A stretch of DNA of 64,000 nt. It comes from Faecalibacterium langellae. Its GTDB lineage: Bacteria; Bacillota; Clostridia; Oscillospirales; Ruminococcaceae. The DNA lies in assembly GCF_002549775.1 (NCBI RefSeq), contig NZ_NMTR01000012.1, forward strand, positions 1 through 64,000. The letters are read 5' to 3'. How positions within the stretch are numbered: the first letter of the stretch is position 1; each line of letters begins with the position of its first letter. This document shows positions 52,794-59,254 of this stretch, piece after piece. A program made the translations under genes and the position numbers. A model generated the notes under the pieces. It had not been told where the DNA came from and searched no databases. It saw nothing but the letters and a program-made list of their open reading frames with translations.

Positions 52794-53372
52794 TTAATCC
52801 TTGATGACGCTGGTGATGTCCCAGGTTGCATAGACGTCAGAATAAGCATCGTTCTCGTTGCCCAGGGCATTGTGACGGGGGAAATACTGGATGTAGACAT
52901 TCTTAGCAGCTTGCAGAGCGTTATTGTCCAGATTGCTGATGGTCAGAGTGACCTTAGAGGTCTCGTTGGCCTTCAGGCCTTCGCCGCCGCCAGCAGCAAC
53001 AAAGCTGCTGCTGGGAGAAACATAATGTGCAGTACCGTCAGCGTCGATATATTTCAGCTGATAGTGAGAAAAAGTATCGCTGGTGCCCTCGGAAACAGGA
53101 GTATGCTCGAAGTAGCAGACCAAAGCACCAGTGACTGCTACAGTATAAGAGGCACCGGCTTTCAGGACGTGCTTATCGTGAGAAGCGCCAATACCCAGGA
53201 AACCGCCGGAAGAACCACCGAAAGTCAGGGCGCTGTCATTGTTCACATTGTAGACAGCACTGGGCTGGTTCGGGTTGCCGCTGCAGCCGGTGAACATACC
53301 GGCGCTGGCAACTGCCACTGCGGTGAGGGCAGTGTATTTCATAAAATCACGACGGGAGAAAGTGTAAGACAT
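52794..53372 (-). CDS. Tat-type lipoprotein
   Basis: A 192-residue exported protein. The signal MSYTFSRRDFMKYTALTAVA has the twin-arginine motif SRRDFMK and lipobox FTGC. The mature part is Ser/Gly-rich at first, then a beta-type domain (KAGASYTVAVTGALVCYFEH, KVTLTISNLDNNALQAAKN). No enzyme motif. The start follows AAAGGAGGAACGATT. A perfect 16-base palindrome lies upstream at 53509. Codon use is less GC-rich than that of its neighbours. Confidence 0.78.
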   Translation of the reverse strand: MSYTFSRRDFMKYTALTAVAVASAGMFTGCSGNPNQPSAVYNVNNDSALTFGGSSGGFLGIGASHDKHVLKAGASYTVAVTGALVCYFEHTPVSEGTSDTFSHYQLKYIDADGTAHYVSPSSSFVAAGGGEGLKANETSKVTLTISNLDNNALQAAKNVYIQYFPRHNALGNENDAYSDVYATWDITSVIKD

Positions 53373-53508
53373 AATCGTTCCTCCTTTAAAGGCAGATACA
53401 TTCAAAAAGCCTTGCGGCGTTTACTTATAAAATAGGCGAAACCGGTGGAAATGTCAATGCCTTTTGCAAAAATAAATTCTGCAAAAAACAGGATGCTGCG
53501 CGGGTTTT

Positions 53509-53524
53509 GGACGAAATTTCGTCC
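53509..53524. promoter_or_regulatory. perfect palindrome GGACGAAATTTCGTCC
   Basis: A 16-base perfect palindrome in the gap between two Tat-lipoprotein genes. It shares the half site AAATTTCGTC with the region in front of the XRE regulator at 55.1 kb. Probably an operator. Confidence 0.55.
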
Positions 53525-53537
53525 CGCTTGCGGGGCA

Positions 53538-54152
53538 TCAGGCGCGGGTGACGTCGGCGGCCTTCATGGTAAAGGTGAGGGTCTTGTCGGCCACGAAGGT
53601 GGGCATGTAAGTAACTTCCAGCTCTTTCCAGCCCTTGGGCACCATCAGCAGCATCTGGACATAGCCGCTGCCCTGCGGGGGCAGGGTGGTGGAGTCCGAG
53701 AAGCTCTGGGAGTTCTGGTTGTACAGCGAGATGGTGGCGGTGCACTCGACGGTCTGGCCGTCGCAGGAAGCCACAAAGTCGGTGGTGTCGGCAGCCAGTG
53801 CGTGGAAGTTTGCGTCCACGTTGCTTGCCGGGGGCACCGGGTAGGCGGCGTCGATGGCGTCCACATTCTGTGCGCCGATGGTGAAGGTCTGATCCTTGGT
53901 GCGGTTCACCACGGTGACCAGAACTGCCAGATATTCATAACCCTCCTGCTGGGGAGCGGTGTCAACGCCGAACAGGCTGGAGAGCTGAACGCCCAGACCG
54001 TTCCAGTTGCTTACCTTATCGCCGACCTTGACGGAAACGACGGTGGAGCTGCCGTTCTGCTTGCAGCCGGCCAGCATGCCGGATGCGCCCAGAGCCACCA
54101 CAGAAGCACCGGCACCCTTCAGAAAAGCGCGGCGGGAAATGCAGTTGGACAT
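53538..54152 (-). CDS. Tat-type lipoprotein, paralogue of the 58.6 kb gene
   Basis: A 204-residue exported protein. The signal MSNCISRRAFLKGAGASVVA has SRRAFLK and lipobox LAGC. The mature domain reads YEYLAVLVTVVNRTKDQTFT and GWKELEVTYMPTFVADKTLTF, resembling DUF4352-like immunoglobulin folds that bind or present ligands outside the cell. The C-terminal strand aligns with WQTLELTWHPDFAAGRSETF of the Tat protein at 58.6 kb. The start follows AAGGAGGATTTATT. Confidence 0.8.
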   Translation of the reverse strand: MSNCISRRAFLKGAGASVVALGASGMLAGCKQNGSSTVVSVKVGDKVSNWNGLGVQLSSLFGVDTAPQQEGYEYLAVLVTVVNRTKDQTFTIGAQNVDAIDAAYPVPPASNVDANFHALAADTTDFVASCDGQTVECTATISLYNQNSQSFSDSTTLPPQGSGYVQMLLMVPKGWKELEVTYMPTFVADKTLTFTMKAADVTRA

Positions 54153-54275: not shown

Positions 54276-54971
54276 TCACCCTTCCGGCGAGATGCCCTTG
54301 ACGTGGGTCTCGCTGGTCTTGACCAGATTCAACAGGCTGGGGGTGTACAGCGGGAACTCCCGGGTCAGGCTTTCGGTGGTCATGGCAAGGCAGGCGGGGT
54401 CCTTCACGCCCTCGCCGCCGTTCACGTCCTGCCCGGCCAGCAGCGCTTCCACATTGGCCTCAGACATGCACATCACGGCGTCGGAATAGCCGCGCCAGCG
54501 GTAGGCGTCGATGCTGAACATGCTGGCGGCGTTGTGGGGCTCGGCCGAGTAGAGGTGGCGGAACATCTTGGCCACCGCCATCATCAGGTAGGAGCTCACC
54601 TCGGTGGTCAGGGCCTTGCTGTGGCACTGGCCGATCTTGGCGTACAGCACGTTCAGGCTGTTGGAGATCAGCTTTTTGTTCATGGTGGGCAGCACGCTGC
54701 CGTGGTAGACGTTATCCTTCATCTTATCCGGGTTCGGGATATCTTCGGCCGAAAGCATCATGCCGTTGCGCTCGGCACTGCGGCCCAGCAGGTAATCGCA
54801 GGAAACATTATAATAATCGGCCACCCGCACCACGAAGTCCAGGCCGCACTCGCGGATGCCTTTTTCATAGTGGGACAGCAGCGCCTGCGAGACGCCCAGG
54901 TCTTCGGCGGCCTGCTTCTGGGTGATGCCGCGCTCTTTGCGCAGCAGCTTGATGATACGGTTGAATTCCAT
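54276..54971 (-). CDS. XRE-family transcriptional regulator
   Basis: A 231-residue regulator. The N-terminal Cro/C1 HTH (about 6-62) is RIIKLLRKERGITQKQAAEDLGVSQALLSHYEKG..DYLLGRS. A long helical C-terminal region follows, with no known domain. It is divergent from the receptor kinase. The shared intergenic region has an inverted repeat AAAAATGACGA/TCGTCATTTTT. It may control itself, the kinase and the Tat-lipoprotein genes. Confidence 0.87.
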   Translation of the reverse strand: MEFNRIIKLLRKERGITQKQAAEDLGVSQALLSHYEKGIRECGLDFVVRVADYYNVSCDYLLGRSAERNGMMLSAEDIPNPDKMKDNVYHGSVLPTMNKKLISNSLNVLYAKIGQCHSKALTTEVSSYLMMAVAKMFRHLYSAEPHNAASMFSIDAYRWRGYSDAVMCMSEANVEALLAGQDVNGGEGVKDPACLAMTTESLTREFPLYTPSLLNLVKTSETHVKGISPEG

Positions 54972-55148: not shown

Positions 55149-55291
55149 GAAAGCATCAGCGCATACATTTAGTGGCGCGCGATTTGCGGAAAAACCAAAA
55201 AATTCGGCGCTTTGGCACGGTCTGCAGCCGTTTGCCGGGCATTCTGGCCAAAAACAGCGCTGCAAGCAGAAAAATAAGACGAGGGATCAGC

Positions 55292-57736
55292 ATGGAAAAC
55301 GAGTATTACAAGCGGTATGAGCCGTTCTTCGGCGAGTGGCGCATCAAGCGCTTCATCGGCGCAGGCAGCTACGGCAGGGTGTTCGAGATCGAGCGCCGGG
55401 ATGAGTTCGACACCGTGTACACCGGTGCGCTCAAGGCCGTGACCATCCCGTCCAGCCAGGGGGAGCTGGACGAGATCCTGGCCGACGGCATGGACATGAA
55501 CGGCGCTTCCACCTACTTCCGGGATTACGTCAAGGAGCTCAACCGGGAGATCGCCCTCATGAGCAAGCTCAAGGGCCACAGCAACATCGTGAGCTACGAG
55601 GACCACAAGATGTTCCCCCACGAAGACGGTGTGGGCTGGGATATCCTCATCCGCATGGAGCTGCTCACCCCCATCACCAGCTACCTGAAGCAGAACCACA
55701 CCTTCACCCGCCGCGAGGTCATCCAGCTGGGCATGGACCTGTGCAAGGCGCTGGAAATTTGCCAGCGGTACAACATCATCCACCGCGACATCAAGCCCGC
55801 CAACATCTTCATCTCGGAGACCGAGGACTTCAAGCTGGGCGATTTCGGCGTGGCGCGCATCGCCAGCGCGTCCACCGGCGCTTCCACCCGTGCGGGCACC
55901 GTGAACTATATGGCCCCGGAGGTCTTCCGGGGTGAAAAGTACACCAGCAATGTGGACATTTACTCGCTGGGCCTTGTGATGTACCAGCTGCTGAACAACA
56001 ACCGGATGCCGCTTTACCCGCCCTACCCCCAGCCCATCACCCCGTCCAGCCGGGAACGGGCCCAGGCCCAGCGGCTTTCCGGCGCGGCCCTGCCGCCCCC
56101 GGCCAACGCCGAAGGCCGTCTGGCCGAGATCGTGCTCAAAGCCTGCGCGCCGGACCCGGCCCAGCGCTACGACAGTCCCACCGTGATGCGGCAGGCGCTG
56201 GAAGCCATCCTCTACACCGAGGGCGAGGCGAAGATGATCTACCCGGAGGGCGACACCGTGCCCGTGCCCAGCACCAGCGGCGCGGCCGCCCCGGAGGAAA
56301 ATGACCCCAACGGAGAGACGGAGCGCCCAGTGTGGGGAAAGGCGCACGCCGACAGCGAGAAACCCGCCAAAGCGGAGAAAGACCTGCCGGAATGCCTGAA
56401 AAACGCAAGGGATGACGCCCCGCTGGAACAGCAGTTCTCCCTGCGGGAGCTTTCCGGCCTGAGCAAAGAGGAAGCCGACGCGCTGGACCTCACCCTGAAA
56501 CCGATGCCGCAGCCTGCCCCGGCGGCAGAACCGGCAGCACCTGTCGTGCCGCAGGAGCCCGCAGCGGACCAGACCGTGCGGGTGGAAACGGCCCAGCCCG
56601 CCGCCCCGGCCGACGACAGCACCGTGCGGCTGATGCCCGGCGCAGTGCCGGTGCAGACCCCGGCGGAGGACCACACCGAGCGCGTGGCCGCGCCGGTGCA
56701 GCCGGTGCAGAATGTGCAGGAGAGCGACAAGACCACCTTCCTGTTCGAAGCGCAGGCCGAGAAGCGCCGTCAGGAGCAGCAGGCCAAGCGGGAAGCGGAG
56801 GAAGCCGCCCGCCGCAAGGCCGCTGAAGAAAAGGAAGCGGAGCTGGCCCGCATCCGCGCCGAGAAGCGCGCGGCCGAGCAGGCCGCCGCCGAGGAAGCCG
56901 CCCGCAAGGCAGAAGCCGAACAGGCCGTTGCGGCGCAGGCAGCCCAGCAGCAGGCGGAACCCGCCGTCTCCCAGAAGAAGGGCAGCAAGCTGCCGCTGGC
57001 GATCGGCGGCGTGGCCGTTGCCGCCGTGGTGGCCGTGGGCGGCTTCGCTCTGGCTGGGCGGGGCGGTGCATCCAGCACAGCAGCTGCCAGCACGGCAGAT
57101 GCCATCTATACGGCGGGCACCTACACGGCCACGGCCGAGGGCTGTCTGAGCGATGTGACCGTGACGGTGACCGTCAGCGATAAAGCCATCACCGATGTGC
57201 GGGTGGACGCTTCCGGCGAGACGGCAGAGCTGGGCGGCAAGGCCGCAGAAGAACTGCCGAGCGAGATCATCCGCAGCCAGAGCACCGATGTGGACGGCTA
57301 TACCGGTGCCACTCTCACCAGCGACGCCATCAAGAAGGCTGCTGCAGACTGCATTGCACAGGCTTCCGGTAAAAAGGCGGCGTCCAGTCAGGCGGCAAGT
57401 GCAGCGGCTTCCAGTACCGCCAGCGAGGAAAGTGCTTCCGCCAGCGTGGCCGAAAGTGCCGCCGCAAGTTCGGAAAGCGAAAAGCCGGTGAGCAGTTCCA
57501 GCTCTGTGAGTTCGTCCAGCGCGGTAAGCAGTTCAAAAGCGGCGAGTTCGTCTAGCAAAGCTAAAGGTTCAAAGGGAGCCAACTCGTCCCGGAAAGCATC
57601 AACATCATCCAGTAGTGTTGCGGTGTCTAGTTCTTCTGAGGTTGATGAAGAGATATCTTCTGATACAGAATCCGACACAGAGCAAGAGGTGCTGGACGAG
57701 GGAGTAGAGGACTGGTGGGCATCCCTGTGGGAGTGA
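55292..57736 (+). CDS. receptor Ser/Thr protein kinase with extracellular FMN-binding domain
   Basis: An 814-residue protein. The kinase domain (about 15-300) has GAGSYGRV (23-30), Lys48, HRDIKPAN (164-171), DFG (184-186) and APE (208-210). An acidic, proline-rich linker follows, then a charged coiled coil (about 485-563), one transmembrane helix (about 567-590) and an FMN_bind domain (about 605-695). The last holds DGYTGATLTSDAI (from 668), where Thr674 fits the residue flavinylated by ApbE. A Ser-rich tail ends in an acidic region. Hanks kinases usually carry PASTA domains here, so an exported flavin suggests redox sensing. The start follows GAGGGATCAGC. Confidence 0.88.
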   Translation: MENEYYKRYEPFFGEWRIKRFIGAGSYGRVFEIERRDEFDTVYTGALKAVTIPSSQGELDEILADGMDMNGASTYFRDYVKELNREIALMSKLKGHSNIVSYEDHKMFPHEDGVGWDILIRMELLTPITSYLKQNHTFTRREVIQLGMDLCKALEICQRYNIIHRDIKPANIFISETEDFKLGDFGVARIASASTGASTRAGTVNYMAPEVFRGEKYTSNVDIYSLGLVMYQLLNNNRMPLYPPYPQPITPSSRERAQAQRLSGAALPPPANAEGRLAEIVLKACAPDPAQRYDSPTVMRQALEAILYTEGEAKMIYPEGDTVPVPSTSGAAAPEENDPNGETERPVWGKAHADSEKPAKAEKDLPECLKNARDDAPLEQQFSLRELSGLSKEEADALDLTLKPMPQPAPAAEPAAPVVPQEPAADQTVRVETAQPAAPADDSTVRLMPGAVPVQTPAEDHTERVAAPVQPVQNVQESDKTTFLFEAQAEKRRQEQQAKREAEEAARRKAAEEKEAELARIRAEKRAAEQAAAEEAARKAEAEQAVAAQAAQQQAEPAVSQKKGSKLPLAIGGVAVAAVVAVGGFALAGRGGASSTAAASTADAIYTAGTYTATAEGCLSDVTVTVTVSDKAITDVRVDASGETAELGGKAAEELPSEIIRSQSTDVDGYTGATLTSDAIKKAAADCIAQASGKKAASSQAASAAASSTASEESASASVAESAAASSESEKPVSSSSSVSSSSAVSSSKAASSSSKAKGSKGANSSRKASTSSSSVAVSSSSEVDEEISSDTESDTEQEVLDEGVEDWWASLWE

Positions 57737-57791
57737 AATTTACTGGTTGGTGAAAAACAATGAACCAATCAACTACTACGACTGACCCCGG

Positions 57792-57820
57792 TTTTCAAAA
57801 GCGGCTTTTTGTGCTATAAT
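57792..57820 (+). promoter_or_regulatory. promoter of histidine phosphatase gene
   Basis: Extended -10 TGC-TATAAT with TTTTCA 17 bases upstream. Confidence 0.6.
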
Positions 57821-57885
57821 AAAAATTCAGCGCCCGTCCGCAGTTTGCCGGGCGGGGCATTCCCCAAACGATACGAGGTGTTTTC

Positions 57886-58560
57886 ATGAAAACCTTTAAG
57901 CTTCATCTCATCCGCCACGGCATGACCGCCGGCAACCTGCAGGGCCTTTACATCGGCAGCGGCACCGACATCCCGCTGTGCGACGAGGGCCGTGCCCAGC
58001 TGGCCGAGCTGAAGGAGCGGTTCGAGTACCCGCAGGTGGACACCGTGTTCTCCTCTCCCCTGCTGCGCGCGGTGGAAACGGCGAACATCCTGTTCCCGGA
58101 CGCAAAGCACACCTTCACCGTCCACGACCTGCGGGAGGCGGGCTTCGGCAAGTTTGAGAACAAGCCCGTGAAGGAACTGGTGCACGACGAGGACTTCAAA
58201 AAGTGGATCACCCCCGGCTCCGGCTATGTGCCCGAGGGGGCCGAGCCCACCGACCAGTTCCACGCCCGCTGCGCCGAAAGCCTGATGAAGCTGTTCGAGT
58301 ATATGATCCGCATGGATGTGACCGAGGCCGCCTGCGTGACCCACGGCGGCGTCATCATGAGCATGCTCAGCCAGCGTGCCGTGCCCACCCGCCGCCCCGA
58401 GCAGTGGATGGCCGACCCCGGCTGCGGCTACACCGTGCAGACCGATGTGCAGCTGTGGATGCGCGACCGTCTGGTGGAGGCCATCGACATCGTGCCCTTC
58501 GGCTACGCCGATACCCTGCGCGGCCAGGCCGAGACCGAGGAAAACGAGGCCTTTGAGTAA
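57886..58560 (+). CDS. histidine phosphatase (phosphoglycerate mutase-like)
   Basis: A 224-residue branch 1 histidine phosphatase. The phospho-His is His11 in LIRHGMTAGN; SSPLLRAVETANIL, the acid residue in LREAGFGKFENK and CVTHGGVIM complete the site. It is probably a broad phosphatase rather than a glycolytic mutase, because the cofactor-dependent mutase C-terminus is absent. The start follows ACGAGGTGTTTTC. It follows the kinase but has its own promoter. Confidence 0.9.
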   Translation: MKTFKLHLIRHGMTAGNLQGLYIGSGTDIPLCDEGRAQLAELKERFEYPQVDTVFSSPLLRAVETANILFPDAKHTFTVHDLREAGFGKFENKPVKELVHDEDFKKWITPGSGYVPEGAEPTDQFHARCAESLMKLFEYMIRMDVTEAACVTHGGVIMSMLSQRAVPTRRPEQWMADPGCGYTVQTDVQLWMRDRLVEAIDIVPFGYADTLRGQAETEENEAFE

Positions 58561-58648: not shown

Positions 58649-59254
58649 ATGTCCCAGTCCATTTCCCGCCGGTCATTCCTGAAATGTGCCGGTTCCGGTG
58701 CGGTCAGCCTTGCCGCTGCCCTGCTCACCGGTGTTTCCGCTGCGGCGCAGCAGCCGCGTCTTGCGGGCGAGCCTGCCCTGCTGGACGGCAAGGCCGCTGT
58801 GGAGCTGCTGGGCTATGCCCCTGCGCCGGAAATGGGCAATGTGCTGGTGTACCTCTCGGTGGAGAACCTTTCGGCTTCCTCCCTGCCCGTGGACGCCAGC
58901 TACCTGCAGAGCCGCGAGGTGCGCACCCTGGCGGACCTGTACAGCATGGGCACCGGCTTTTCCGCCGTGTGCGACGGCACCGCCGTGCGCTGCGGCAGCT
59001 TTGCCGCCCCGCTCTACGGCGAGAACGCGGCGGATGCTTCGGTGTTCACCCTGAACCTTGCCGCAGGCAGGGGCGCGCTGGTGCACTGCTTCTGCGCCGT
59101 GCCGGAAAACTGGCAGACGCTGGAGCTGACCTGGCACCCGGACTTTGCTGCAGGCCGCAGCGAGACCTTCACGGTGCACCGCGGCACCGACGAGGTGGCC
59201 CTGGGCGCTGTGCCCTCCTGCCCCGCCGAGGTGGGCAGCGTGGTGGACCTGTAA
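58649..59254 (+). CDS. Tat-signal exported protein
   Basis: A 201-residue protein. The signal MSQSISRRSFLKCAGSGAVS has SRRSFLK but ends LLTGVSAAAQ with no lipobox, so it is probably cleaved and released rather than lipidated. The mature domain (VLVYLSVENLSASSLPVDAS, WQTLELTWHPDFAAGRSETF) is a divergent paralogue of the lipoprotein at 53.5 kb. Function unknown. The start follows TTGAGGAGGAAGCCCC. Confidence 0.8.
   Translation: MSQSISRRSFLKCAGSGAVSLAAALLTGVSAAAQQPRLAGEPALLDGKAAVELLGYAPAPEMGNVLVYLSVENLSASSLPVDASYLQSREVRTLADLYSMGTGFSAVCDGTAVRCGSFAAPLYGENAADASVFTLNLAAGRGALVHCFCAVPENWQTLELTWHPDFAAGRSETFTVHRGTDEVALGAVPSCPAEVGSVVDL

Follow-up and report, generated by a model that had tools for sequence, protein, structure and literature searches.

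A probable receptor kinase of Faecalibacterium langellae fused to a predicted outer FMN-binding domain with a candidate flavinylation site

We analysed a stretch of 64,000 nucleotides (hereafter the window) from Faecalibacterium langellae, positions 1 to 64,000 of contig NZ_NMTR01000012.1, assembly GCF_002549775.1. One gene in it, at 55292-57736 on the forward strand, encodes a Hanks-type Ser/Thr kinase joined through a predicted membrane helix to an FMN_bind domain that bears a complete motif for covalent flavin attachment by the enzyme ApbE. We tentatively favour the view that this protein is a receptor kinase: its outer domain, flavinylated by ApbE, would signal redox state or electron flow outside the cytosol, and the protein would act on a phospho-threonine/FHA network. 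To our knowledge, what bacterial receptor Ser/Thr kinases sense is in most cases not known. The roles described for ApbE-linked flavins are those of electron carriers and enzyme cofactors. A receptor kinase with such a flavin, if true, would have an input that redox dyes could set, that fluorescence could show and that replacement of the predicted flavin-bearing threonine (T674A) would abolish.

The original prediction, made from the DNA letters, had claimed a kinase-FMN_bind fusion, and this claim is borne out by one open frame of 814 residues, in which the terminal stop is the only one, and by both Pfam domains scoring above their cut-offs. Because the frame stays open over all 814 codons, no frameshift separates the kinase and FMN parts in assembly GCF_002549775.1. 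An assembly artefact or frameshift at the junction is thereby ruled out for this assembly, the nearest paralogue also aligning collinearly to either side of the FMN segment; the whole gene is spanned by one assembly only. Its parts are as follows.

55292..57736 (+): whole reading frame of kinase, linker, transmembrane (TM) helix, FMN_bind domain and Ser-rich tail, 814 aa; single open frame, with a GAGGGA-like ribosome site (by eye) ahead of its ATG
55340..56191 (+): Hanks-type Ser/Thr kinase domain, aa 17-300; PF00069, 3.9e-40; catalytic motifs intact
56567..56740 (+): part of the linker containing four acidic-x-Thr motifs (DQTVR 426, DSTVR 442, DHTER 460, DKTTF 479), candidate FHA docking sites; the motif was picked after the sequences had been seen
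56744..56971 (+): long charged segment rich in Glu, Ala and Arg, probably a coil, aa ~485-560 (by eye)
56996..57052 (+): predicted membrane helix, aa 569-587; hydropathy 2.37, the sole 19-residue stretch above 1.6
57061..57418 (+): segment with the FMN domain, missing from the nearest paralogue, L054:11878-14310; DNA matches to the latter stop at 57060 (93.9% over 522 bp) and restart at 57419 (97.1% over 102 bp)
57149..57355 (+): FMN_bind domain, aa 620-688; PF04205, 7.4e-14; PDB 8p2b chain, E 9.1e-12
57293..57313 (+): flavinylation motif D668-GYTGA-T674, with the predicted FMN-Thr codon at 57311-57313; motif as defined in PMC12052999 (partial text)
57368..57709 (+): Ser-rich tail; 37% Ser in residues 693-814
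57710..57733 (+): C-terminal DWWASLWE, aa 807-814; the PASTA kinase of the same genome has DWWASLWG

The kinase domain possesses everything expected of the Hanks type, namely the Pfam Pkinase fold, the P-loop (GAGSYG, 23-28), the lysine (ALK, 46-48), and the HRD (HRDIKPAN, 164-171), DFG (184-186) and APE (208-210) motifs. Hydropathy, the only basis for topology used here, reveals a single strongly hydrophobic helix with lysines on its N-terminal, kinase side. This supports the earlier claim of one membrane helix and a predicted topology in which the kinase is cytoplasmic and the FMN_bind domain extracytosolic.

Within the outer domain, the sequence DGYTGATLTS at 668-677 fits the published ApbE motif D-x-x-[S/T]-G-A-[S/T] (PMC12052999, partial text) completely, as D668-x-x-T-G-A-T674. 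The presence of an ApbE motif, as claimed in the original prediction, is supported, and T674 is the predicted FMN-Thr. The motif turned up in 202 of 20000 shuffles of the 861-aa stop-to-stop frame; here it sits within FMN_bind. Relatives in the PDB are 8p2b, which is domain 1 of CbFMN4, and more weakly 3o6u (E 0.0016). CbFMN4 is reported to bind FMN covalently, and its companion SaFMN3 to have a potential of -184 mV (PMC10339131, partial text). When aligned with five other FMN domains of the genome, the kinase FMN domain keeps all 25 invariant columns. Two cysteines, at aa 618 (in GCLSDV) and 687 (the C of DC), are common to this domain and to a near relative, L017:5884-6240, and the remaining four aligned domains carry the second cysteine only; a redox disulfide between C618 and C687 is possible.

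The genome encodes a single ApbE (E 8.3e-68 when the genome was searched, 1.4e-67 in a second run), whose N-terminus appears lipobox-like (LAGC) by eye. FMN_bind matches number 12 in 11 open reading frames (ORFs), the window kinase among them. They include an RnfG-like protein within an Rnf cluster (RnfD 1.8e-100, the remaining Rnf genes by eye), two proteins in an operon with a NapH-like Fer4_5 (4Fe-4S) protein, proteins that by eye are fused to FAD-type flavoproteins, and a protein of 118 aa with a single N-terminal helix. The check proposed with the original prediction, for apbE and extracytosolic electron-transfer genes, therefore found both, and neither of the outcomes that it had named as refuting, a genome devoid of ApbE or a frameshift between kinase and FMN parts, applies.

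RnfG, NqrC, flavinylated reductases and CbFMN4 domain 1 (8p2b) contain the same domain with a D-x-x-[S/T]-G-A-T motif, likewise predicted to lie outside the cytosol. Those ApbE-flavinylated proteins serve electron transfer or reduction, whereas the window domain is fused to a kinase. One could hold that the kinase merely anchors the flavin, and that the outer domain is a cell-surface electron relay of the Rnf or NapH-like system with no bearing on kinase activity. FMN_bind proteins are indeed electron carriers in described systems (PMC8238504, partial text), and the genome holds the further carriers and flavoproteins listed above. However, the kinase gene is not clustered with electron-transfer genes, and a protein with intact catalytic motifs, from a family with variable outer domains, would be an odd anchor since short single-helix FMN_bind proteins (L014:6160-6627, L017:5884-6240) exist in the genome for that. 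We regard a mere anchor as unlikely.

Redox or flavin modules tied to Ser/Thr kinases are familiar from phototropin LOV kinases and from PknG with its rubredoxin domain. The likeness to the window kinase is one of working only, as their modules are cytoplasmic, do not carry ApbE-linked FMN and have unrelated folds. Light sensing by the window kinase was considered and set aside. The literature yielded no bacterial Ser/Thr kinase whose outer domain is flavinylated, which is weak evidence of novelty because most subscription journals lay outside coverage. The main flavinylation survey was filtered for signal peptides or lipidation, and the word 'kinase' does not occur in its available part (PMC8238504, partial text); PMC11334425 showed no occurrence of the word either.

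The fusion was sought among related kinases in a family set of 116 ORFs (score >120, length >250 aa, 85 source loci, duplicates across collections kept, 20 cut at the C-end), using our own 8-sequence FMN_bind HMM (on 88 + 28 ORFs) and a scan for the flavinylation motif. Both the HMM match and the motif were confined to the window ORF. Thus there was no second kinase-FMN_bind fusion among those 116 ORFs; unrelated kinase families across bacteria, and plasmid and E. coli collections, were not searched. A Pfam census of 80 post-kinase regions was led by LRR_8 (17), Sel1 (8), TPR_14 (8), SH3_3 (7), NPCBM (5) and PASTA (4), among the best 25 of 73 families. Outer domains that vary over the kinase family in this way, from LRR, Sel1, TPR and SH3 to NPCBM and PASTA, are what would be expected of sensors. 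The kinase type is carried by 18 of 396 genomes sampled from the bacterial family (E<=1e-30) and 29 of 394 sampled from the order (E<=1e-50), and by 4/31 genomes of the genus among the matches listed. A scan of genome contigs returned 37 loci, 31 of which (L069-L099) hold relatives at 35-55% identity, mostly in clostridial metagenome-assembled genomes (MAGs), the other six being remote. In four of these loci (L089, L078, L095, L073), from insect-gut or other uncultured Clostridiales MAGs, the same kinase type forms long tandem arrays, often with similar C-ends (e.g. LPNCxxxF) and mostly without genes of a type VII secretion system (T7SS) on the contig.

Seven kinases of the window type are present in the F. 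langellae genome among the matches listed: the window copy, four at C2:80.6-90.9 kb and two on C6. The C2 paralogues lie in a T7SS locus together with an FHA-FtsK ATPase (FtsK 4.1e-52, FHA 1.8e-14), a VWA-FHA protein, two PP2C phosphatases and a zinc-ribbon-LRR-MORN protein, and with YukD-like (0.0017) and WXG100-like (5e-4) matches below cut-off. All paralogues have the kinase in common and the closest ones share the linker and helix too, but the outer ends differ, being TPR/NPCBM-like, none, unassigned and LRR_5. The nearest paralogue among the matches listed, L054:11878-14310, is 84% identical over residues 1-359 and 89% in the linker; Pfam finds no outer domain in it, and its outer end looks 'CAP-like' by eye only. 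At the DNA level it matches the window gene over 999 bp (87.8%), 522 bp (93.9%) and 102 bp (97.1%), with the FMN domain exactly between the last two blocks. Because the matches break exactly around it, the FMN domain is, as judged from these alignments, a segment exchange on a common scaffold of kinase, linker, TM helix and Ser-rich tail. No near-identical donor of the segment was found, the best match being 76.5% over 149 bp in a search of the fetched loci only, with no genome-wide DNA search made.

Such an exchange might have delivered nothing more than a chance outer spacer, with no flavinylation or an irrelevant flavin, on a receptor that senses something else or nothing. Fast change of the outer segments among paralogues would agree with this, as would the recency of the swap (flanks at 94-97% DNA identity), its occurrence in one species and the failure of the fetched loci to yield a donor closer than the one just mentioned. 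Yet the domain is complete, with a full motif and all columns that are invariant among its aligned relatives, and the ApbE present in the genome should modify any reachable exported D-x-x-[S/T]-G-A-T site. In our judgement an idle spacer is improbable.

We took the region around the flanking histidine phosphatase gene, which lies downstream of the kinase, from 8 of the 30 genus genomes that carry it. In 8/8, DNA similarity to the window breaks off at 55151-55181 and returns at 57866-57885, with no match to the kinase in the gap. In its place the three closest species have 130-134 bp, three others 60-92 bp and the remaining two ~790 bp of other sequence. The features concerned are these.

55182..57884 (no strand): stretch without DNA match at the syntenic congener site, marking the gene insertion; 8/8 congener loci
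54276..54971 (-): flanking HTH (XRE-type) regulator; PF01381, 7.2e-15
57886..58560 (+): flanking histidine phosphatase superfamily gene; PF00300, 9.4e-31; in 30/31 genus genomes

The gene is thus most likely a recent copy of a kinase of the T7SS-linked family that moved to a new chromosomal site and had part of its outer segment replaced by FMN_bind. More generally, this kinase family, T7SS-linked in the genus, appears to recombine different outer domains onto a kinase, linker and membrane helix that stay the same, and this offers a natural receptor set for finding what such kinases sense.

A T7SS ATPase is present in 5/31 genomes of the genus, and the four kinase carriers (among the matches listed) all fall within these five, with both genes on the same contig. 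The probability of this overlap by chance is 1.6e-4 if genomes are independent, a figure that ignores the relatedness of the species. T7SS subtypes with a membrane kinase, a PPM phosphatase and FHA parts have been described, and phospho-threonine control was suggested for them (Garrett et al. 2024, PMC11217815, partial text). Compared by description only, TscD, TsdD, TseD and TsjD of these subtypes resemble the window kinase in having an N-terminal cytoplasmic kinase of active type, a TM helix and a variable outer C-terminal region. As with the TsxD kinases, the paralogues share their locus with an FHA-FtsK ATPase, YukD-like, WXG100-like, PP2C and FHA proteins (PMC11217815, partial text). In contrast to TsxD, the window kinase is not encoded in a T7SS locus, and its outer domain is FMN_bind. 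The home locus, for its part, has a VWA-FHA protein in place of TseJ/TsjJ (DUF6382-FHA) and several tandem kinases.

That locus, with VWA-FHA, two PP2C and tandem kinases, comprises L062:13990-18648 and L054:2-16482 (G000:C2). The same gene order with one kinase recurs at G022:C7 (L066/L067), and a locus of this type has no exact match to subtypes T7SSc-j as described in the available part of PMC11217815. Directly after the full ATPase, L054:2-808 encodes a shorter ORF resembling the EssC C-terminus, 35% identical to ATPase residues 1263-1551, which is perhaps a substrate-specificity module.

The linker of the window kinase, of Ala/Pro type, lies between the kinase and the charged coil. By eye, the window kinase and two paralogues carry the acidic-x-Thr motifs (DQTVR, DSTVR, DHTER, DKTTF) in their linkers, and similar DATVR and DATVF motifs are seen in the VWA-FHA and zinc-ribbon proteins. 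Across 70 linkers, acidic-x-Thr occurred 27 times, compared with 4.8 on average and at most 13 in shuffles, for a motif picked after the linkers were read. These threonines are candidates for phosphorylation and FHA docking.

For the window copy, we infer flavinylation, redox control and a role with the T7SS from sequence. In the scheme that we propose, ApbE outside the membrane would attach FMN to T674. The flavin could then be reduced by donors in the envelope (Rnf, the NapH-like/FMN_bind cluster, soluble flavins or thiols) and hand the electrons on to acceptors. How the flavin is reduced or occupied would alter association of the outer domains and, via the coil, kinase activity. The active kinase may phosphorylate acidic-x-Thr sites in its own linker and in shared partners such as the VWA-FHA protein and the T7SS ATPase with its FHA domain; resetting these sites would fall to the two PP2C phosphatases. 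Extracytosolic redox conditions would in this way feed the same phospho-Thr/FHA network as the signals of the other paralogues. The fuller idea that a covalent flavin serves as kinase input to a T7SS-associated phospho-threonine/FHA network, and so ties secretion against neighbours to the redox conditions of the gut lumen or mucosa, is more doubtful.

Several observations speak against this proposal. The fusion is seen in one species only, hence the flavin site has no backing from conservation. AlphaFold, run on the single sequence of the FMN domain, gave a model too weak for use (pLDDT 56.5, pTM 0.47). Between 47 and 64 kb of the window, the kinase is not beside T7SS, PP2C, FHA or ApbE genes. 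The fifth ATPase genome of the genus (G016) shows no such kinase in the 19 kb read, and beyond the genus the association with T7SS is weak: among 31 loci, many on short contigs, PP2C accompanies 8, some EssC/FHA-type match 5 and full-length EssC 1. Any acidic-x-Thr motif at all occurs in 10/70 linkers only. Also against the proposal is MT839777.1, the one record from a second strain (4034 bp, from human faeces in Mexico), where the kinase part differs at 21/510 nt, more than the flanks (98.2-98.8% identical), with 9 replacement versus 8 silent codon changes over 170 codons. These counts give no argument for strong constraint and were thus weighed against function. The FMN part lies beyond the end of the record and has hence been seen in one strain only.

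MT839777.1 contains the same locus and kinase codons 1-170, open, and stops before the FMN part. The second strain is from a separate sample and person and has kept the gene at the same site; the faecal origin of the record suggests a human-gut source. A young duplicate heading for loss, with no selected function, might be suspected from the absence of the gene at the 8/8 congener loci examined and from those 9 replacement and 8 silent changes. Set against this are 814 open codons with intact catalytic and flavinylation motifs, and a frame in the second sample that is open to the end of the record; we give the idea little credence. The same record was the best 'phage' match of the gene. Being an unverified metagenomic contig that represents the chromosomal neighbourhood, 98-99% identical to the window, it says nothing on phage carriage, and a phage origin was rejected. 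The other phage matches, 19 among the matches listed (of 23), are at kinase level with <34% identity, and two scans of a viral contig collection confirmed no relatives.

The original prediction had also pointed to the PASTA repeats that are usual in the outer part of Gram-positive Hanks-type kinases; known PASTA kinases are PrkC, IreK and Stk1/PknB. The window kinase is like these in being a single-pass Hanks-type receptor kinase of Gram-positives, but a PASTA kinase is not the closest relative; the closest family members lie in the T7SS locus and have varied outer domains. The window kinase has no Pfam match to PASTA repeats and belongs to another kinase clade. On the PASTA kinase equivalog profile NF033483 it scores 134 bits versus a cut-off of 450, and its kinase domain is ~30% identical to that of the PASTA kinase in the same genome. 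With these values, descent from a PASTA kinase that lost its outer part was rejected.

What the two do share is the C-terminal end. DWWASLW occurs twice in the genome, closing the window kinase in one case and the PASTA kinase in the other, and is absent from the other 30 genomes of the genus. Like the window kinase, PASTA kinases of the genus have a Ser-rich segment and an aromatic C-tail: of 25 examined (the own one and 24 from congeners), 13 end in DWW type, 9 in WPW type and 3 in neither, and on 22/25 the aromatic tail (DWWxSxLx or IWPWDWF-like) follows a Ser-rich stretch. The aromatic end is thus common to the FMN kinase and the envelope kinases of the genus, and the nearest paralogue is without it. 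These tails would favour a role in the cell-envelope pathway of PASTA kinases instead of T7SS, with DWWASLW leading to the same envelope partner. Given kinase domains so distant, a tail of just 8 residues, a similar end (DWWTSLFG, found with a looser pattern) on an exported C39-peptidase-like protein (L198, in G003) and no known partner, we judge such a role quite improbable.

Anti-phage defence kinases match the window kinase in the kinase domain only: the mad6 profile (MADS6) aligns with aa 5-314 (6.6e-53; profile positions 42-321 of 659), and the match to PD-T4-6 is likewise confined. Lastly, three small exported proteins are encoded on both sides of the kinase site (52794-54152 and 58649-59254); their N-termini are Tat-like (RRxFLK), and one of them scores at the DUF4352 cut-off.

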